Positions 3,812-30,275 of a stretch of DNA of 34,958 nt are shown in pieces. The first letter of the stretch is position 1; the number at the start of each line of letters is the position of its first letter. Origin of the DNA: a virus; IMG/VR virus record IMGVR_UViG_3300044644_000440, positions 1-34,958 of that record; one strand, 5' to 3'. Position numbers and translations under genes: made by a program. The notes under the pieces were generated by a model. The model was not told where the DNA came from, did not search any database, and was given only the letters and a program-made list of their open reading frames with translations.

Positions 3812-4588
3812 ATGACAGCAACACCAAAAACAAACGAAGCGATTGCGGCGCACGAACCGCAAAGCATGGCACTAGCGCAGGTCAGCGCAGAAACTCAAGC
3901 CTTTGAGCTTATCCAACGGCAAGCCATGATGCTTTCCAAATCCACGCTAGTCCCCAAAGATTTCGCCGGAAACGTAGCAAACTGCGCGATTGCCTTGAAC
4001 GTAGCAAAGCGAACGCGCCTTGACCCATTGATGGTCACGCAAAACCTCGCAATCATTCACGGACGGCCATCATGGAGCGCAACGGCACTCATTGGAATGA
4101 TTAACGCATCCGGCAAGTTCTCGCCCCTTCGCTTTGTCATGGACGACGATGACGCTCCTTCCTCTTGCTACGCTGTTGCAAAGGACAAAGACAGCGGCGA
4201 GGAGCTGAAAGGAGAGAAGATCACCCTCGAAATGGCCAAGAAAGAAGGCTGGTCAACTAAGAATGGCTCGAAATGGCTGACGATGCCGGGGCAGATGCTC
4301 CGATACCGTGCAGCGAGCTTCTGGAGCCGTGCATACGCCTCCGATATGTCCCTTGGCATGTATACGCAAGACGAAGTTAGGGACTTTGCGGAACCGCCAA
4401 GGAACGTAACTCCTGCAAAAGTCAACCCGTTCATCGAGGAGCCCGTAGAGACGCAGGAAATCGAGGCGGAAATCGTGGAACCCGTAGAAGTCGAAGTTAT
4501 TCCCGAAACAAAGAAGCAGCCAGTAAAGGCCCACGTTGACAAGATCGCACAAGCATTTGAAGCAATGGCGAAGGAGGTGGAGCCGTGA
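3812..4588 (+). CDS. RecT-like single-strand annealing protein
   Basis: A 258-aa protein matching the phage RecT family. It has STLVPKDFAGNVANCAIAL near residues 43-62, a QNLAIIHGRPSWSATALIGMI segment, and the typical EGWSTKNGSKW and MPGQMLRYRAASFWSRAYA regions (about 145-180). RecT proteins coat single-stranded DNA made by a partner exonuclease and anneal homologous strands. An acidic, Glu/Val-rich tail (about 205-235) may be a flexible linker. The exonuclease and an SSB-like protein lie directly downstream, giving a complete recombination cassette. Its stop codon overlaps a GTG start (GTGA) of a 52-aa gene. Confidence 0.8.
   Translation: MTATPKTNEAIAAHEPQSMALAQVSAETQAFELIQRQAMMLSKSTLVPKDFAGNVANCAIALNVAKRTRLDPLMVTQNLAIIHGRPSWSATALIGMINASGKFSPLRFVMDDDDAPSSCYAVAKDKDSGEELKGEKITLEMAKKEGWSTKNGSKWLTMPGQMLRYRAASFWSRAYASDMSLGMYTQDEVRDFAEPPRNVTPAKVNPFIEEPVETQEIEAEIVEPVEVEVIPETKKQPVKAHVDKIAQAFEAMAKEVEP
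4571..4580 (+). promoter_or_regulatory. Strong Shine-Dalgarno before GTG start
   Basis: AAGGAGGTGG lies 4 nt before the GTG at 4585, inside the last codons of the recT-like gene. It is one of very few strong Shine-Dalgarno sequences in the window and decides the start of the following 52-aa gene. Confidence 0.6.
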
Positions 4589-4743
4589 GAGTCACACACA
4601 CACCGTTTAAGACAAGAACCCGCGCAGTCGGAAGCGACCTCGAAATGACTATCGCATTGTTGGGCGCACTGAAGAACCCGAACAAAAGCGCGTTCAGCAA
4701 ACTAGGCAAGATCGCCACAACCCTCACAAAGCTATTCAAATGA
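4585..4743 (+). CDS. Small basic protein inside recombination module (52 aa)
   Basis: A 52-aa basic protein read from a GTG overlapping the recT-like stop (GTGA) and ending in an ATGA overlap with the exonuclease gene. Residues 18-32 (DLEMTIALLGALKNP) and 40-52 form two helices, the last rich in Lys and Leu. The tight overlaps on both sides and the strong ribosome binding site argue that it is real although short. It could be an accessory of the annealing protein or exonuclease (inference). No family is recognised. Confidence 0.6.
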   Translation: MRVTHTPFKTRTRAVGSDLEMTIALLGALKNPNKSAFSKLGKIATTLTKLFK

Positions 4744-5543
4744 AAATCGAACAAGGACTAGGCAAAACGTATTACGAGCGCACAGCGACCCCTTCAGACC
4801 CCAAAGCGGGGCCAGTGTCGAAGTCTCTACTCTGGGATTTCAACAAGTCTCCCTTCAAATGGCGGCACAGCAAACCAAGAGAGGCATCGAAGGCAATGGA
4901 TCTTGGGACGCTGATTCATGCCGCGACTCTGGAGCCGGAGACGGTAGAGCAAATCATTGCAATCTCTCCCTACGCCGACTTCCGCACAAAAGAAGCCCGC
5001 GAGTGGAAAGCCGAACAAGCTGACTCTGGCAAAATCATAACGTCAAGAGATGAAATAGACAAGGCACTCTCCATTGCCGAGGCCGTCACGGATGAATATC
5101 ACTTGCAATTCGATGCAAAATACAAAACCGAGGTGGCTGTTTTTGGCAAGATTGGAGTTACCGAGGTAAAGGGGCTTATCGACATCGTTCCTGATGGCCT
5201 TGATTGCCTGATGGATCTCAAGACGACCGGAGAAATTGGAAGCCTAGAATCCCTCCAGCGGGTCATAGTCAACCGGGGCTATCACTGGCAAGCGGCACTC
5301 TATCTCGACCTCTGGAACGCAGCAGCAAACGAGAAACGGACAAGGTTTATCTTCTGCTTCGTGGAGGTCGATTCGCCGCATGAAACCGCATGGGTAGAAT
5401 TATCCGAGAATTTGCTTGATATCGGTCGGGCCGGATATATGAACGCCTTAGCTAAGTGGCAAACCTGCATCGCGACGAACCACTGGCCGAAACAAATCGA
5501 AGGAATCCAAACAATCGAAACACCGAAATACATCACACAATGA
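4740..5543 (+). CDS. PD-(D/E)XK exonuclease, DUF3799/exonuclease VIII-like
   Basis: A 267-aa nuclease of the DUF3799 (exodeoxyribonuclease VIII-like) type. Conserved elements are SKSLLWDFNKSPFKWRH (about 27-43), GTLIH with H60, the catalytic Asp D148 in GLIDIV, D159-x-K161 in DLKTT, and Q184/Y188 in HWQAALY, the order expected of RecB-type exonucleases. It should degrade one strand of duplex DNA ends to give the RecT-like protein its substrate. The start overlaps the upstream stop (ATGA) and its own stop overlaps the SSB-like start. Length is normal for the family. Confidence 0.8.
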   Translation: MKIEQGLGKTYYERTATPSDPKAGPVSKSLLWDFNKSPFKWRHSKPREASKAMDLGTLIHAATLEPETVEQIIAISPYADFRTKEAREWKAEQADSGKIITSRDEIDKALSIAEAVTDEYHLQFDAKYKTEVAVFGKIGVTEVKGLIDIVPDGLDCLMDLKTTGEIGSLESLQRVIVNRGYHWQAALYLDLWNAAANEKRTRFIFCFVEVDSPHETAWVELSENLLDIGRAGYMNALAKWQTCIATNHWPKQIEGIQTIETPKYITQ

Positions 5544-15469: not shown

Positions 15470-16465
15470 TTAGTAAGCAATCTTGCCGTGCGCCTGCGGG
15501 TGCTTGACGCAGAGAGTGCCAGCAACGTCAACGTAGCCACGCTCGCCGCCACCTTGGTTCTCAAGACGAGTGCCGCCCATTGGGATCAGGGTGTTAAAGC
15601 CAAGATACTTAGGGTTAAGGACGTAACCAACGTTGGTCGATGCGGTTGGCATACAGCTTGGGTTGCCGTTGATGATCTTCACGATACCGAAGTCGGAATC
15701 ATAGAGGTTAACCGAAAGCGTGATTGCCTTGCTGGTCGCGTCTTGATTGACATGGTAGGTAACGCCAGCACTCGCAGGTTGAGCGCGGGTGAAGCCGCTG
15801 ATAACTTGGCGAAGAGCCGTGTTGGCAACGAGCGTCAGGCTGTTCATTTCGCCATTCTTACTGAAGATCGAACCCAACATGGTGTTGAAGGTCGACTCGG
15901 TAACAGTGGCCGCAAGGATCGAACCGGAAGGGGTGCGATAATCAGCAGGAACAGCATTGGTGGCTTGGGCGGTGGACTGAATCCACTTGCCAAGGCCGCG
16001 CATACCGTAAGGAGTGCCAGCACCGTTTTCGACAGTCATTTCGTTGTCGGAAGCAATGGTAGCTTCGATGTCACGCTTGATTTCACGCATCGACTTTGCT
16101 TCGGCTTGAGCGACGTTGGCAGGACCAACGCTGGTAACAGCTTGTTGCAGGTTCGACACAAGGTAATCGCGGCGCATCAGTTGGATGTAGTTACCCAGAC
16201 GAGCGCGGTCAGCAAACTTGTCGCTGAACGAGGTAACGTCGGAACCTTCGGAAATACCAGTCGTAACTGGGGATGCGAGGGAATCAACGGTCCACTCGGT
16301 GAACGTCGAAGCGGCCTTGCCTTTGGAGCAAAGCGACAGGATTGGGGTTTCTTCTGGAGCAAGGATAGCAAGTTCGTTGCTGAGATCCTCACGGTTGGAG
16401 ATTGCGGAACCCTTGCCAGTTTTGGCTTGGGGCGCATTTGGTTGATAAGTAGCACTAATTGGCAT
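15470..16465 (-). CDS. Major capsid protein (SU10 MCP/DUF5309-like)
   Basis: A 331-aa protein that resembles the SU10 major capsid family (DUF5309), an HK97-fold capsid. Indicative segments are TPILSLCSKGKAASTFTEW (about 41-60), DKFADRARLGNYIQLMRRDY (about 82-101), a long spine-like helix with AEAKSMREIKRDIEATIASD, and a Gly-rich C-terminal GGTRLENQGGGERGYVDVAG. Length is normal for the family. The scaffold gene is immediately upstream and the decoration-like gene downstream. The ATG follows an A/T-rich leader without a Shine-Dalgarno sequence. Confidence 0.75.
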   Translation of the reverse strand: MPISATYQPNAPQAKTGKGSAISNREDLSNELAILAPEETPILSLCSKGKAASTFTEWTVDSLASPVTTGISEGSDVTSFSDKFADRARLGNYIQLMRRDYLVSNLQQAVTSVGPANVAQAEAKSMREIKRDIEATIASDNEMTVENGAGTPYGMRGLGKWIQSTAQATNAVPADYRTPSGSILAATVTESTFNTMLGSIFSKNGEMNSLTLVANTALRQVISGFTRAQPASAGVTYHVNQDATSKAITLSVNLYDSDFGIVKIINGNPSCMPTASTNVGYVLNPKYLGFNTLIPMGGTRLENQGGGERGYVDVAGTLCVKHPQAHGKIAY

Positions 16466-21451: not shown

Positions 21452-23995
21452 CTAGTATCCTCCAGACCCGTGAGTTGTAACAAATGATTGGCTATTGTCA
21501 ACGTGATCGAGATTTGCAATGGCTGCGTAGCGACAAACATCAATTGGATCTTTCCACGCTTCTTTAAGCCCACCTTCGCCAGTGTATTCGCTGAGTGCTT
21601 GAATGATATTCTCGCAGTCGCTGCTGACGTAGAAATGCGGTCTGTTAACGGAATCCAAAGGTCGAGCGGTATCCCATGACATCTTGCCGATCAATGCTTG
21701 AAGCCCATCGTCGATATCAAGCCCCGGTGCAGGGATACAAACCATTCCTGATTCGCTTAGGTCTTCAATGATCGAGGAGGAACCGTCTTGCGCTTGGTAT
21801 TTTGCGGCTCCAAGGCGGGGGTCGATCAATCGCTCAAATATCTCCTCGTCGCCCTCCATCTCTTGAATTGCCTCGATGTAGTCACGAATACCAAAGCCTT
21901 GCCCCTTAGCTCCCGGCCCCGGCATCCACTTGCCGCTTTTCCATTCCGCCCAGTCGCCAACGTCAACTCCCGGCCACTCACGGTAAACCCAGAACGTCCC
22001 GCTCTCGTCAATGGCAATCCAGCACATGAACCAGTTCTTCGCCCCAGCAGGGTCAATAACGTGATAGCGCGTGATGTTTTTGGTCGGGATAGAGGACGGG
22101 GGAACCACGTTTACAACCTTGTTAAACTTGGGGAACTTGGTTGCATGGGACTTCATTGGAACCCCGTAGGCGCGGATCAGAATCTCCTCCCGTGTGCGTC
22201 CTGACAGCGTTTCTTTAATGCGCTCGTATCCGCCAAAAGCATTGTCCTGAGAGTGGAAGTAATGAACTGATGCGTTTAGCTTTTTGGACCGCTGGACGTA
22301 TGGAACCAACTCACCATTAAGGAGTTCCGCTGGTCTTGACTCGATAGTTGTCGCCCCATCAAGATACTCTTTGATGACCTCTGTCCAACCGTCAATCGGA
22401 GTGAACGTGACGAGCATCTTGGCATTTCGCGTAGCTAGCCGGAACCTAAGCGTGTTAATCAACTCTGGCCCCAAAAGGTATTCATCTGCCCATACACCGA
22501 TGTTGTGCCAGACTGGATTCTTAGACCCAAGTTCTGCGCCTTCCAGAATTGTCGGATTGTTCTGATACTGGGAATACGTTTTGAAAATGATTTGAGAACC
22601 GTTTGGAAGAATCAACGATGAGTCCGTGAAGCCAGTCTTCTTCTTGTAAGAGATGTAGGTGTTCGCGCTTGTCTGCTTGGTCTTGAGGTTCTCTGGCAAC
22701 CAGTCCCACACTGCGCTCTGCTGCTGGCGAATGCTGACCTCGGAAGTCTGAGCGAAGCAGAAGATTTCAGACTTCGGGTTCTCGATAGCCGCACGGACAA
22801 CTGAGAACGCACCCCACTGCGTCTTTCCCGAGTTGTGCGAAATCACCCCGGCGGCAACATAGTTGTTGTAGATTGGAACGTGGAAATCCCATACCACATC
22901 ATCACGGAGGTAATCGACGGAAACAATCTTGACAAGGTTTTGATCGGGGCTATTGTCCCTGCATGCCTCAAAACATAAATTACCCCGTAGAGTTGATAAG
23001 GTCTTACATCCAACAAGGAGAGACGCAAGATTCGATAGCCAAGAAACTAGTTGATGCTGGATACGACAAAAGGATAACCGCAAAAGCGATTTACAAGGTT
23101 TGCCGTAAGCACTCGATAAAATGTCAACGGACTGGTCCTCGCGCTGGTGAAGGTCATCCAGAGTGGAAAGGAGGAAGGATTCTGAACAAATCTGGTTACG
23201 TTGAAATTTATCACCCCGATCATCCAGCTGTTCAAGAGAAGAATCAAAAACGCCTTGAGAAAAGCAATGGGAAGTATTTCCGCAAAGAGAAATACATGCT
23301 TGAGCATCGCCTAATAATGGAGAAGGAAATCGGGCGATACTTGAAGCCAGAAGAGGTTGTTCATCATGTTGACGGGGACACGCAAAACAACGAACCAGAA
23401 AACCTTGAGCTTTTCCAAAATAATGCCGAACACTTGCGAGAAACTTTGAAAGGGTGCGTTCCAAATTGGACAAAACAAGGTAATCGAAACATTGAGGCTG
23501 GTCGGACACTAGAACATCGCCGTTACCTAGCGATCCTAAGGAACGCCATCCGTCGGGAGTCAGGAGCAAATGAGCCTTTGAGCAAAAGAGAACTTGCCCG
23601 TTACTTAAGGAGACTTGGTAAATCCCCGAAACAGGCTTGTGAAATGGTTTCTCTGCACGCGCTACCACCGTTTGACGACCGTCCCAAGCATTGACATAGA
23701 AATCCGATTTAATCTGATCGACCCTTTTGTAGCAATCTGCAACTGGGTCATAGATTTCTTGTTCAGCCCCAAGACAGCGATTTCCACCTAGCGCAAGGAT
23801 CTCGTTGACCTCAAACAGTTGCTCTTCAGCCTTGCTCCAATGAGGGAGCCTGAACCCGTAGTGATACGGGTCTTTTTCAGCGTTCTCAATCGCCTCATGG
23901 TAAACCGAATGAAGCCCGATTAGCTCATCAGGCTCCATTTGCACCATCTCCTCATCGGTGGGTGGGGTGAGGATTGCGTGTTTCCGCCAAATCAT
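21452..23995 (-). CDS. Large terminase with intein in Walker A
   Basis: An 847-aa precursor: residues 1-73 N-extein, 74-388 intein, 389-847 C-extein. After splicing the 532-aa product is a normal-length large terminase that packages DNA into the capsid through the portal. The rejoined Walker A is GGNR + SGKT; Walker B is VWADE (D504, E505); LVTFTP is the coupling motif. The C-terminal nuclease has VIDPAGAKNW, ERLIDPR and DPIDVCRY, carrying the expected acidic residues. Without splicing the ATPase site is broken, so packaging depends on the intein. The ATG overlaps the small terminase stop by 4 nt. An HNH gene lies on the opposite strand within the intein. Confidence 0.85.
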   Translation of the reverse strand: MIWRKHAILTPPTDEEMVQMEPDELIGLHSVYHEAIENAEKDPYHYGFRLPHWSKAEEQLFEVNEILALGGNRCLGAEQEIYDPVADCYKRVDQIKSDFYVNAWDGRQTVVARAEKPFHKPVSGIYQVSLSNGQVLFCSKAHLLLTPDGWRSLGSLGNGDVLVSDQPQCFDYLVLSNLERTLSKFLASVRHYFGKAQGFLVRCFACPRQHDEQPLLASSIARFPSPLLGDAQACISLCGNTSHCFSQGVFDSSLEQLDDRGDKFQRNQICSESFLLSTLDDLHQREDQSVDILSSAYGKPCKSLLRLSFCRIQHQLVSWLSNLASLLVGCKTLSTLRGNLCFEACRDNSPDQNLVKIVSVDYLRDDVVWDFHVPIYNNYVAAGVISHNSGKTQWGAFSVVRAAIENPKSEIFCFAQTSEVSIRQQQSAVWDWLPENLKTKQTSANTYISYKKKTGFTDSSLILPNGSQIIFKTYSQYQNNPTILEGAELGSKNPVWHNIGVWADEYLLGPELINTLRFRLATRNAKMLVTFTPIDGWTEVIKEYLDGATTIESRPAELLNGELVPYVQRSKKLNASVHYFHSQDNAFGGYERIKETLSGRTREEILIRAYGVPMKSHATKFPKFNKVVNVVPPSSIPTKNITRYHVIDPAGAKNWFMCWIAIDESGTFWVYREWPGVDVGDWAEWKSGKWMPGPGAKGQGFGIRDYIEAIQEMEGDEEIFERLIDPRLGAAKYQAQDGSSSIIEDLSESGMVCIPAPGLDIDDGLQALIGKMSWDTARPLDSVNRPHFYVSSDCENIIQALSEYTGEGGLKEAWKDPIDVCRYAAIANLDHVDNSQSFVTTHGSGGY
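22929..22957 (+). promoter_or_regulatory. Promoter-like element for antisense HNH gene
   Basis: TTGACA (22929-22934, perfect -35), a 16-nt spacer and TATTGT (22951-22956, four of six matches to -10) lie just before the ATG at 22963, so the transcript would be nearly leaderless. GACAA (22931-22935) and TTGTC (22953-22957) form an inverted repeat, and TTGTC ends 5 nt before the ATG, as in the other HNH gene. On the other strand the same bases code for intein residues around LVKI. Confidence 0.55.
22963..23694 (+). CDS. HNH homing endonuclease antisense within intein
   Basis: A 243-aa protein on the strand opposite to the terminase. Residues 8-55 form a helix-turn-helix-like part (YPVELIRSYIQQGETQDSIA). 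Residues about 65-155 are an HNH core with GYVEIYHPDHP, EHRLIME (H115), VVHHVDGD (H134, H135) and NNEPENLEL (N143, N147), the HNH_3-type order. It should cut intein-free terminase genes to drive homing. Its C-terminal 65 residues overlap DNA encoding the intein's N-terminal splicing domain, so that stretch codes on both strands. No endonuclease is present in the intein frame itself. Confidence 0.85.
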   Translation: MPQNINYPVELIRSYIQQGETQDSIAKKLVDAGYDKRITAKAIYKVCRKHSIKCQRTGPRAGEGHPEWKGGRILNKSGYVEIYHPDHPAVQEKNQKRLEKSNGKYFRKEKYMLEHRLIMEKEIGRYLKPEEVVHHVDGDTQNNEPENLELFQNNAEHLRETLKGCVPNWTKQGNRNIEAGRTLEHRRYLAILRNAIRRESGANEPLSKRELARYLRRLGKSPKQACEMVSLHALPPFDDRPKH

Positions 23996-24605: not shown

Positions 24606-27600
24606 TCATTTTTTGGATTTGACTCCAAAAACTTCAGGAACTAGTTCACCATTACGGTTGAACCTTGGCGACTGAGGCATCAGGTTGTCACGGATGCTGT
24701 AATAAGAGCTTGGACCAAACGGAATCACAACGTCACCACTGGTCTTGATTGCGCTTTGGATTCTGTCAAATGCGAACGTCCTGAAAATTCCAGTAACTTT
24801 ATCTGGAGAAACCTGCGACATGAGCGGGTTGGTTTTCAGCTGCCTTTTTGTCTGCAACCCAAGAACAGAGTTAATAAAGTTTTTACGCCGCTCCCAATTT
24901 TTAGGATCAACGCTTTGATAATACGCGTCGGTTGACTTACCCGAGTTCTGAATCTCGACGGACTTTTCAATATCCTCCAAGATAGATTTACGAGTCAGCC
25001 CAAGTTCTTTTGAAATGTCGTTTTTCAATGCCCTTGTGACATTCTTCTCAAGCTGGCGAAGATCCATTGACTCAAGATATAAACGCCCTTTCTTCAGAAC
25101 CCACTTAGTAGGAACAACATACCCTTCAGCAATTCCTTCAACTTGAACAGAACGACCTTGCCTGAATGGTTTGTTTGTAACAAGAAGTCCGTGTTTTTGT
25201 GACGCGTCTAGTGCGTCTTGCAAAAACAATGCTTCTCCAAACCTGCCATCATCAATTACACCAGATTCTTCCAACGATTTAAGGTGATCTGCCGTAAGAA
25301 CCCCCTCTCCATTTCCATTTTTATCTGGAATCAAAACGCCATCTGGCAGTTTCTCGCCACGGTCAACAAAACCTTTATTGACCTGCTCAATAACAGTATT
25401 CGCTTTGTAGTGACTTGGGTTGTCGGATTTGACATCAACAATCTCCTGCGGTCTTGCGGCCCTTGGCTTTCCAGATGTTTCCCGATACATCTGGCGAACC
25501 ATAGACTTCACTTCTGGAATTTCACGAAATCCTTCCGCAAGCAATCCAGTTCCCATTACCATGCGTCCGGTTGCATCGGTTGCCCCACCCAGCTTAAAGT
25601 GCAAACCCTTAACAATGGGTGTAACATTAAAAATGGTCCTGAAGGTGCTTTCTACATTTCGCCGCAATGGCGTTTTTCTAGATTCTTTGTAAAGATTGCC
25701 CTTCAACGTGTCTTCAAGAAGAGTCTTTACACCTTGGTCCGTGAAATATTCAACGGCTAGTTCGCTCAAGTTGGATGGAGCAAGACCGTTTTGTTCTCGC
25801 AGACTGTTGTATTCTTTCGACCACGCGCTGAACTCGGCGTCAAGCGTCCCATCAACATTGCGAACTAAACCAGACCTTGTTTCGTCGCCAAGCATTCTTG
25901 ACACGATAGCAGCATCATTTTGCCAAACGTGCTGAATCATGTGTCCCGCTTCGTGCATAGCTACTTCCTTGAGGAATCCAACTTTGTCATTGATGTTCAC
26001 AACCGCCCTGCGACTTGCCGGGTCAAAGAAGTTGTTGCCTGATTCGGTAATATCCCACTTGAACATTCCGGGATACGCGGCATCAATTCCAGAAATAGCA
26101 TACCTGAAATCACGGTCTTTGAGCTTGTCAAAAGCAGCAACTTGATCCACGTCTAGTTTCTTGCGGTAATTGAACATCTGATCAGCATTCACCTGATCCA
26201 TGTTTTTCTTGCCGCCAATCAACCTTCCAAGAGAACCAAAGATAAGCGCATCACGTCCAGCCCGCTTAACAGTGGTTTCATCAACGCCTTGATCGTTGAT
26301 CGCATTGTAAATAAGAGTCGCGGGAGCCGCTTGAGCAATGCCCTTTGACGCATTCACGACACCTCTTGCAAGGGGAGACGAGTAGTCACCAAGTGTTGCA
26401 ACAGCGCGGCCCAGTCCCCCAACGCTCTCATTTGCGGCAACACGCCTAAAGAAAGGAGTTGAGCTAGCACGTTCAAGCATTTCTTCGCTCATAACGCGGC
26501 CAAAATTTCCAAGTTTACGCAAAATCTTTGGCGCAACAACAGTCCCCACTTTGATTCCTGCATAAGTTGCAAACGCAACTGGGTTTGTCAAAAAAGTAGC
26601 GGCTTGAATAATTCTTGGAATGCTGCTGTAACCCCCAAATCTTTCTGCTTTTCTAATGAATCTATTTACTCCAGCTATCCCTTCACCAAGTTTTTCAGCA
26701 CCGATAGCAATACCCTTTGTCGCGCCGGATGCAACTTGGCGAGTCATGTCTCCAGCAGTTTTGATTGAATCAATCCCGATTTCGGTCTTGTTTGCAAAAT
26801 CGCTGATATTTTTTATGCCGTCATCAATCTTGCCGATTTGAGAAGCGATTTCATCAGATTGCGAAGTAAGAACATTGAGCTTGTTGGTTAACTCTAGAGA
26901 CTTTGCCTGATCGCCTATTTTGACGGCATCATCAAGTTGACCTGAAACCAACAACGCATCATCGGAAATCTTCTGTGCCGCAGCAGTTGCCACGCTCTTT
27001 GCATTAGTCAACCTCCGTCCTTGAGCGACAGCAACAAGCCCTTGTTCTGCTTTTCTTGTGGCGTCGGCAATGCGGATCATCTTGAAACCAGTAGCCAACC
27101 CAGCAGTTGCTAGTCCCACGGCTAATCCCGGAACATCGCCACCAGCCTGCCCTACTGACTCGTAGTTGTTCATTGCCTCCGTGAATTTCTTGTCACCATC
27201 TTCGTCTCCGTATTGGGTGACGTAGTTTTGCCGAGTCTGCTCAACAACATTTGCCACTTCTTCGCCAGCACCAACAATTCCAGCAAGTTCAGCAGCACTT
27301 GTGTTGCGAAGAGTTCGGTCAAGCATTTCTGTTTGATACCGCTCCTGATTGTCTCTGCGATCTACCTCTTCTTTTGACATCAAGCCAGCCGCCTCAAGAA
27401 TCGGCAGCAGTCCGACATCTTGTCCAAAAACATTTGTCTTTGCGATTGCGGTAGCTGTTTTCTGCATGCTTAAACCGGCCCCTTTAACAAGCCCACTTAC
27501 CGCTTGTGCCTGAGCCGCCTTGACCTCTTCTATTGGCTTGCCGGAAAACGTCCCTCTGAGCAAAACGTCAGCACCTGCACCGAATCCTTTCAAGCCCTTC

Positions 27601-28088
27601 CACAGCTCGGTAAAGATTCCATCCTCAGATTCTTCTGGTTTATCAAGGCCAGCTTTGCGGCGAATTGCGTAGATTTTCTCTTTTTTGGGATTCTCGCCCA
27701 AGGTCATCCCGTTATCAACCCACTCAGCCGTATTAAATAGCTCTTCGTCTGGAGTGGTGAAGGCAACTCCCTTCTCTGTAAGCGCACCATCTTTAATTAA
27801 GCCACGTTCCTCCATCAACAAATAATCACTGCCAAGGGGAGTTGCTTCTCCATCAGAGTCAAGCAATCCACGAGCTTTCATACCCTCTTCTGTGGCAAAC
27901 TCTGGGATTTGGTATTCAGGCGCAACAATTCTAGGATCGCTCAGTTCAAGCTCTCTCCAATTTGGTGGTTTGGCAGCATCCTTCCGAGCCTGTAAATTGC
28001 CTTGCTCTTTTTCAAGATACTCAAAAATAGCACCTTTTTCAAGTTTGCTGGTCTCTGGATCTACCTGCTCGTCTTCTTGGTTTTCCAT
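24606..28088 (-). CDS. Large virion/ejection protein with HEAGH protease motif
   Basis: A 1160-aa protein, the largest in the window. Residues 1-170 are charged; about 320-345 and 500-530 have hydrophobic Gly/Ala segments that could cross a membrane; about 350-430 is coiled coil. At 712-716 lies HEAGH, an HExxH zinc-protease motif, with candidate third ligands E776 or E780 in ELAVEYF. The C-terminal 350 residues are mixed alpha/beta. Size, membrane-like parts and position next to other Ala/Gln-rich genes suggest an internal virion protein injected with DNA. The protease may process proteins or open the envelope (inference). Confidence 0.6.
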   Translation of the reverse strand: MENQEDEQVDPETSKLEKGAIFEYLEKEQGNLQARKDAAKPPNWRELELSDPRIVAPEYQIPEFATEEGMKARGLLDSDGEATPLGSDYLLMEERGLIKDGALTEKGVAFTTPDEELFNTAEWVDNGMTLGENPKKEKIYAIRRKAGLDKPEESEDGIFTELWKGLKGFGAGADVLLRGTFSGKPIEEVKAAQAQAVSGLVKGAGLSMQKTATAIAKTNVFGQDVGLLPILEAAGLMSKEEVDRRDNQERYQTEMLDRTLRNTSAAELAGIVGAGEEVANVVEQTRQNYVTQYGDEDGDKKFTEAMNNYESVGQAGGDVPGLAVGLATAGLATGFKMIRIADATRKAEQGLVAVAQGRRLTNAKSVATAAAQKISDDALLVSGQLDDAVKIGDQAKSLELTNKLNVLTSQSDEIASQIGKIDDGIKNISDFANKTEIGIDSIKTAGDMTRQVASGATKGIAIGAEKLGEGIAGVNRFIRKAERFGGYSSIPRIIQAATFLTNPVAFATYAGIKVGTVVAPKILRKLGNFGRVMSEEMLERASSTPFFRRVAANESVGGLGRAVATLGDYSSPLARGVVNASKGIAQAAPATLIYNAINDQGVDETTVKRAGRDALIFGSLGRLIGGKKNMDQVNADQMFNYRKKLDVDQVAAFDKLKDRDFRYAISGIDAAYPGMFKWDITESGNNFFDPASRRAVVNINDKVGFLKEVAMHEAGHMIQHVWQNDAAIVSRMLGDETRSGLVRNVDGTLDAEFSAWSKEYNSLREQNGLAPSNLSELAVEYFTDQGVKTLLEDTLKGNLYKESRKTPLRRNVESTFRTIFNVTPIVKGLHFKLGGATDATGRMVMGTGLLAEGFREIPEVKSMVRQMYRETSGKPRAARPQEIVDVKSDNPSHYKANTVIEQVNKGFVDRGEKLPDGVLIPDKNGNGEGVLTADHLKSLEESGVIDDGRFGEALFLQDALDASQKHGLLVTNKPFRQGRSVQVEGIAEGYVVPTKWVLKKGRLYLESMDLRQLEKNVTRALKNDISKELGLTRKSILEDIEKSVEIQNSGKSTDAYYQSVDPKNWERRKNFINSVLGLQTKRQLKTNPLMSQVSPDKVTGIFRTFAFDRIQSAIKTSGDVVIPFGPSSYYSIRDNLMPQSPRFNRNGELVPEVFGVKSKK

Positions 28089-29471: not shown

Positions 29472-30275
29472 TTAGTCTTTCATGTAGCTGAGTTTTTCTT
29501 GGTCCGCCCAAGGGACAAGAGATGAAATGTTTTCAATAGTCATATTGAGTTTTGGGCAGTGAACAAACTTAGGAGACTGTGGATTCCGATTGATGCAACT
29601 AGTGCATGCGTGAACATAATCAACATTATGGAGTTTGTCCACCTTCTCGCCCCAAACGCCATCTAGTTTTTCGTAACGGTCTGAATCGTATGGGACATTG
29701 TTACTTTCAATGTATTCCCAGATATCCGCATGAGTCCAGTCTTGAAGCGGAAACATCATGGTCGCTTGCTCCATAAGCACCCTAGATTCAATCCGTGTTC
29801 CAGCATCTCCTCCAAGAATTGGATCAGAATCGCAACCTTTGTGGCCGATCCATAAACAATCAAATTCAGGGACTTCAAGATAGTGTTGTTTTGGACGCTT
29901 CAGAATATCCAAAGCACAAACAAATTTGCTATTGTTTGTTGGTTCAGTGATTCCGGTTGGACAAGTTAAGATGGTTGAGTTTACTTTGTAGTGATTCTGA
30001 ACTTCCCATTCGTCCCCTTCTTGTTGGAACGCGGACTGATATGGATGCCATGAATAAATAAGCAGCTCCCAGTCTTGGGTGATCTTATCGTGAAACTTGT
30101 ATTTAGATGGTTGCCATGGTTCACGAAAAAATACCAATGGCAAATCAATTCCCATATCACGCATGATATGCAACAATACCATGCTGTCCTTGCCTCCAGA
30201 CCAACAAATCATTCCTTTTGGGAAGTGTTTTGCGCCAGATGCAATTAGCTCTTTTGTTTTTTCAAGTTTTGTCAT
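29472..30275 (-). CDS. PAPS reductase-like (adenine nucleotide alpha hydrolase) protein
   Basis: A 267-aa protein with the PP-loop motif SGGKDS (26-31) in MICWSGGKDSMVLLHIMRDM. It has the FREPWQPS segment, several cysteines (TCPTG, VCALD, GCDSD) and a C-terminal CTSC with a further HCPK, possible zinc or Fe-S ligands. PAPS-reductase-family proteins activate sulfate compounds or, in DndC, modify DNA; which applies here is not visible. It is oddly placed among ejection genes, with a TAATG overlap upstream and a 3-nt gap downstream. Confidence 0.75.
   Translation of the reverse strand: MTKLEKTKELIASGAKHFPKGMICWSGGKDSMVLLHIMRDMGIDLPLVFFREPWQPSKYKFHDKITQDWELLIYSWHPYQSAFQQEGDEWEVQNHYKVNSTILTCPTGITEPTNNSKFVCALDILKRPKQHYLEVPEFDCLWIGHKGCDSDPILGGDAGTRIESRVLMEQATMMFPLQDWTHADIWEYIESNNVPYDSDRYEKLDGVWGEKVDKLHNVDYVHACTSCINRNPQSPKFVHCPKLNMTIENISSLVPWADQEKLSYMKD

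Follow-up and report, generated by a model that had tools for sequence, protein, structure and literature searches.

The terminase gene TerL of the virus record IMGVR_UViG_3300044644_000440 carries an insert that, considered as a whole, is very probably best explained as a splicing intein accompanied by an antisense HNH homing enzyme with a promoter of its own. The DNA analysed comprises positions 1 to 34,958 of that record, hereafter referred to as the window, to which all coordinates below refer. The features of the locus are listed as follows, together with the evidence by which each was assigned.

21452..23995, minus strand: TerL precursor with intein, 847 aa (open reading frame and Terminase_6N match).
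22832..23776, minus strand: predicted class-1 intein, 315 aa, Cys1 to Asn315 (splicing blocks, fold, empty alleles).
23492..23776, minus strand: N-terminal splicing half, intein residues 1-95 (pLDDT above 90, profile match).
22946..23491, minus strand: in-frame spacer, intein residues 96-277, predicted to be disordered, antisense to the HNH gene (rates, profile, model).
22832..22945, minus strand: C-terminal splicing half, intein residues 278-315 (profile match, model).
22963..23694, plus strand: putative gene for an HNH homing endonuclease of 243 aa, running antisense to the intein (Pfam, PHROG, conserved residues).
About 23492..23694, both strands: double-coding stretch in which the C-terminal tail of the HNH protein lies opposite the N-terminal splicing half (slow codon positions).
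22929..22956, plus strand: sigma70-type promoter-like element, TTGACA-16-TATTGT (consensus match and comparison).

The TerL product is recognized by a Terminase_6N match that is weak (4.2e-5), yet above the family cut-off. The intein constitutes TerL residues 74-388 and is inserted exactly in the Walker A loop (P-loop), with the junctions GGNR^[CLGAEQ...VISHN]^SGKT, beginning with Cys1 and ending with His-Asn before Ser+1. A sequence-only reading of this DNA had placed a terminase intein with its splicing blocks at 22832-23776; these coordinates are exact and the splicing residues are conserved, with Cys1 and the terminal Asn occurring in 34/34 clusters of relatives (HN in 32, KN in 2), Ser (32 clusters) or Thr (2 clusters) at the +1 position, and the block B His invariant in the aligned inteins. 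This combination of Cys1, block B His, C-terminal Asn, and +1 Ser/Thr is that of a class 1 intein, to which the insert appears to belong. The TerL/intein frame also matches the Pfam Intein_splicing profile at 1.1e-8, where its 35.4 bits just miss the curated cut-off of 35.8. The same reading had recognized no endonuclease in the intein's own frame, and the domain search agrees, no endonuclease family being found there.

The HNH gene lies wholly within the intein DNA, in the reverse orientation that had been claimed for it, and its product matches Pfam HNH_3 (1.1e-10) and the PHROG HNH family (2.4e-24). The residues H135, N143, N147, N154, and H157 are unchanged in 34-35 HNH sequences, indicating that the opposite-strand protein has an HNH motif with conserved, putatively catalytic residues. 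Opposite this gene, the intein frame is free of stop codons and open throughout, as had also been noted. When PDB sequences were searched with the HNH profile, one match resulted, which covers an N-terminal stretch only and was judged irrelevant.

Three other known arrangements were considered for the locus and excluded. A large intein with an in-frame endonuclease is contradicted by the missing in-frame endonuclease family and by the spacer, which is disordered in the model and fast-evolving in the intein frame; a split intein with a nested endonuclease, by the host TerL being a single open frame in all clusters; and a hidden HNH gene of the ShiLan type, by the position of HNH on the opposite strand and the complete splicing domain. 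The Rfam scan of the window found neither a catalytic intron nor any other RNA family, and no tRNAs were found in the window. A PF05551 search of the window's record gave no match and is uninformative because the control gave none either. Elsewhere in the window, a 1160-aa protein with no PHROG match is encoded upstream of TerL (24606-28088, minus strand), and a phosphoadenosine phosphosulfate reductase gene, an auxiliary metabolic gene, lies at 29472-30275 (minus strand).

The arrangement recurs widely. Searching IMG/VR with the HNH protein returned 68 loci, in 68/68 of which the HNH gene is antisense within an open frame, this frame being TerL with a P-loop intein in all fully read loci. A profile search extended the set to 155 HNH matches, of which 153 are antisense in an intein and share one codon phase, the first codon positions of HNH and intein facing each other; the remaining two matches are distant free-standing HNHs. 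Both intein ends are present in 147 loci, which comprise 80 distinct intein DNAs that group into 34 clusters at 90% nucleotide identity. In these and in the more distant members described below, the insertion site is the P-loop in every case, despite widely differing TerL sequences. The metagenome search for opposite-strand frames in inteins that the sequence-only reading had suggested has thus revealed an arrangement more general than was thought; the frameshift in the intein frame of relatives that it had named as a refutation was not seen, both frames being open in 34 clusters and in finished genomes.

More distant members were found in the cultured Pectobacterium phages Koroua, Amona, Sabo, Ymer, Abuela, Taid, and Pappous, as well as in 'Dickeya phage Setonix' and Pseudoalteromonas phage PHS3; among the cultured phages, the antisense layout was read in Sabo, Setonix, and PHS3. 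Bacterial members occur in the chromosomes of E. coli MEI003 (L285, NZ_CP071263.1 151257-153544), Enterobacter cloacae DSM 26481, and an Acinetobacter sp., as well as in actinobacterium and Methylomonas MAGs. They were found only via the PHS3/Pectobacterium-type profile; none was confirmed via the window-type HNH profile, and the plasmid search gave distant HNHs only. This recurrence across phages and chromosomes excludes a unique oddity of one phage. In RefSeq, the TerL of E. coli MEI003 is an incomplete pseudogene without its N-terminus, next to an HNH gene, while in GenBank the start of the PHS3 TerL is placed within the intein C-terminus, and further pairs of an HNH gene and a truncated TerL may be the same element. 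Four larger members (L232, L238, L240, and L241) carry an antisense HNH gene in the same phase in other TerLs (e.g., GCSS^SGKS), the inteins of L238 and L232 measuring 341-343 aa. The intein of L221 lacks, in frame, the greater part of its N-terminal splicing region together with block B, with the HNH gene intact, which makes it either a defective copy or an assembly chimera.

The distribution of the element among TerL alleles bears the marks of mobility. An empty site was found in 62 of 80 TerL relatives, one of them having an identical TerL C-terminal part, and the intein is precisely absent from these alleles. Identity to the nearest empty allele (L069) is 82-88% in the 50 bp on either side of the insertion and mostly 96-100% beyond, the dip being limited to the nearest 100 bp or so. 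At the +1 position, Ser is encoded by AGY in 47/56 empty alleles and by TCN in 55/64 intein alleles, counts that are linked by shared ancestry; the change between AGY and TCN requires at least two base changes, and in enterobacteria the codon is swapped too, in the opposite direction. TerLs that are 96% identical carry HINT domains only 40% and HNH proteins only 39% identical, which points to horizontal turnover. In terms of sequence, therefore, empty alleles, exact insertion, a co-conversion signature, and a disjunct distribution, the properties of a homing element, are all present.

It is also conceivable that the HNH gene is a passenger, a selfish gene that at some time entered a mini-intein in antisense orientation and is tolerated there as an unstructured loop, but that does not drive homing at this site and may cut elsewhere or be unexpressed. 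Mini-inteins of 136 aa lacking HNH do exist at the same TerL site, with TCN at +1 (L140, L146, and L280-L284), and in one persisting copy (L227:3501-4208) the HNH frame is interrupted by a nonsense codon after about 80 codons, while HNH remains recognizable to the end and the intein frame is intact. Both observations also fit the loss of the homing gene after fixation, as in the homing cycle. A passenger is moreover hard to reconcile with the correlation of HINT and HNH distances across deep divergence (r = 0.72), with the purifying selection on the HNH gene, with the confinement of all close HNH relatives found to TerL P-loop inteins, and with the empty sites and co-conversion described above, and it is accordingly regarded as unlikely.

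Less probable still, at a few chances in a hundred, is a mobile insert with a working HNH enzyme that does not splice, so that TerL retains the loop, as proposed for the ShiLan insertion. A large disordered loop could in principle impair splicing, and such a loop is indeed predicted: in the AlphaFold2 model of the intein, both splicing halves exceed pLDDT 90 and form an all-beta fold, whereas the confidence for model residues 106-287 is below 50. Yet every splicing residue and block is conserved, the HINT halves are strongly constrained and modelled confidently, and the catalytic P-loop, interrupted by the insertion, should have to be whole for TerL to work. The best Foldseek matches of the model are the solved mini-inteins NpuDnaB, SspDnaB, and MtuRecA, and the best sequence-profile matches are likewise solved mini-inteins (2.4e-15), supporting a HINT fold that is predicted to be broken by a disordered spacer, located where other inteins hold the endonuclease domain. 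The HNH protein is also modelled confidently (mean 86.5), its only sensible fold match being a weak one to the homing enzyme I-HmuI (E 0.55).

Selection can be recognized on both reading frames of the element. Synonymous codon shuffling of each HNH gene was used to obtain the expected number of stops in the intein frame, which is 9.5 for the window copy, with 0 observed, and about 7.5 per gene or about 255 in total for the 34 clusters, again with 0 observed. Neither of the other two antisense frames is depleted in this way, one having 276 stops with 276 expected, a value fixed by the shuffle, and the other 392 with 343 expected, and free-standing HNH genes, used as a control, have 113 stops in 1,671 codons in the phase equivalent to that of the intein. 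The substitution pattern within the window group is similarly informative. Differences in the splicing domains fall at intein position 3 (0.29) rather than position 2 (0.02-0.04), those in the spacer fall at HNH position 3, which is intein position 2 (0.31), rather than HNH position 2 (0.08), and in the overlap between the HNH tail and the N-terminal splicing half, all three positions are slow (0.04, 0.09, and 0.05). In other overlap-bearing groups, intein position 3 is likewise reduced relative to the adjoining N-terminal stretch, more weakly in the most divergent set. It follows from these rates that HNH coding governs the evolution of the spacer and intein coding that of the splicing domains, and that the overlap is truly double-coding DNA, indicating that both strands are held open by selection. 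A chance antisense frame is excluded by the stop depletion, the codon-position rates, and the free-standing control, and a frameshift or assembly error by the recurrence in 34 clusters and finished genomes; although long antisense frames do arise by chance, the absence of stops, this recurrence, and the HNH domain match leave an origin of either open frame in chance or assembly with a negligible probability.

A candidate promoter for the HNH gene exists within the DNA of the C-terminal splicing half. The sigma70-type promoter-like element ends 6 nt before the HNH ATG, in a leaderless-like arrangement, and no Shine-Dalgarno site precedes the HNH gene of the window; such a site is found instead in some relatives only and is not a general signal. 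Taken alone, the element is at chance level in the region (1 found, 1.0 expected), and the case for it is supported by the comparison of relatives. TTGAC occurs in the matching upstream stretch of 23/39 sequences versus 7.6 expected under synonymous recoding of the intein, with a combined p-value of 1.9e-20 that is inflated because the sequences are related, and the signal is missing in several groups (e.g., L075, L085, L064, and L150). TTGAC lies opposite VKIVSVDY in the window type and opposite VKWDM in the SSKS type, that is, at different intein positions, and its distance to the HNH start is nearly equal in the two (34 or 37 nt), suggesting that the promoter follows the HNH gene rather than the intein position. 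The HNH gene shares its strand with the RecT, exonuclease, and DnaC-like genes, with the structural genes on the opposite strand; early expression of HNH and late expression of TerL is therefore a reasonable inference. The RecT and DUF3799/PD-(D/E)XK exonuclease genes occupy 3812-5543 (plus strand), and an SU10-type major capsid gene occupies 15470-16465 (minus strand).

Based on this anatomy, we infer that the element would operate through splicing, transcription, cleavage, and homing in the following manner. Translation of the TerL-intein precursor would proceed across the entire element, with the stretch opposite HNH forming a disordered loop of the HINT domain; self-excision of the intein would restore the P-loop. 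The HNH gene would probably be transcribed from its own sigma70-type promoter within the splicing-domain DNA, with a timing or level independent of TerL, and its product would cleave TerL alleles devoid of the intein, at the P-loop or close to it, in co-infecting phages or prophages. Repair would then copy the element and a short flank into the cut allele, and the phage's own recombination pair of RecT and exonuclease could serve as the repairer. The relatives probably represent a widespread class of inteins with splicing and homing functions on opposite strands, partial double coding, and an embedded promoter for an independent endonuclease, which has spread through TerL P-loops in phages of several bacterial groups from an apparently single origin, as one codon phase is shared everywhere.

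Such an element would show that an intein can carry a homing gene unfused to the host protein, leaving homing and splicing free to be regulated, and to evolve, independently of each other. It provides a clear example of antisense overprinting that is open to testing and in which selection can be seen on each strand, an apparent natural family of inteins bearing an unstructured loop of about 180 residues, and an explanation for terminase genes annotated as truncated or as pseudogenes beside an HNH gene, as in E. coli MEI003 and phage PHS3. Direct tests are possible because the element is present in some cultured phages and E. coli prophages and absent from others.

Among known systems, large (bifunctional) inteins resemble the TerL element in having a HINT domain, a conserved active-site insertion, and endonuclease sequence between the splicing halves; here, however, the endonuclease is a separate opposite-strand frame and the in-frame insertion is a predicted disordered spacer. 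Split inteins with a free-standing endonuclease between their halves, reportedly described as 'fractured genes' by Dassa and colleagues in 2009, likewise nest a separate endonuclease gene with an intein, whereas TerL and its intein are unsplit, one frame running across the endonuclease DNA. Inteins are also borne by the terminase genes of mycobacteriophages (Kelley et al. 2016, PMC5050341), similar in location to the TerL element, and a term search of that paper found no antisense endonuclease described in them. The suspicion of the sequence-only reading that the arrangement is new holds for the open-licence library searched, in which no intein with an antisense homing gene came to light. The nearest cases in it are two. 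In the ShiLan element of a phage methylase (Arsenault, Gosselin, Gogarten 2025, PMC11855218), an out-of-frame HNH gene is similarly hidden in an insertion with the host frame open, but it shares the strand of the host gene, from which it differs in frame, and a splicing domain is not detectable there. The antisense homing genes of nuclear group I introns, namely Dsq.L2066 / I-DsqI (PMC9548176) and Didymium iridis S956-2, share with the TerL element an opposite-strand homing gene within a self-splicing element, for which separate transcription has been proposed, and differ from it as eukaryotic RNA elements of rDNA with a His-Cys enzyme and no open sense frame.
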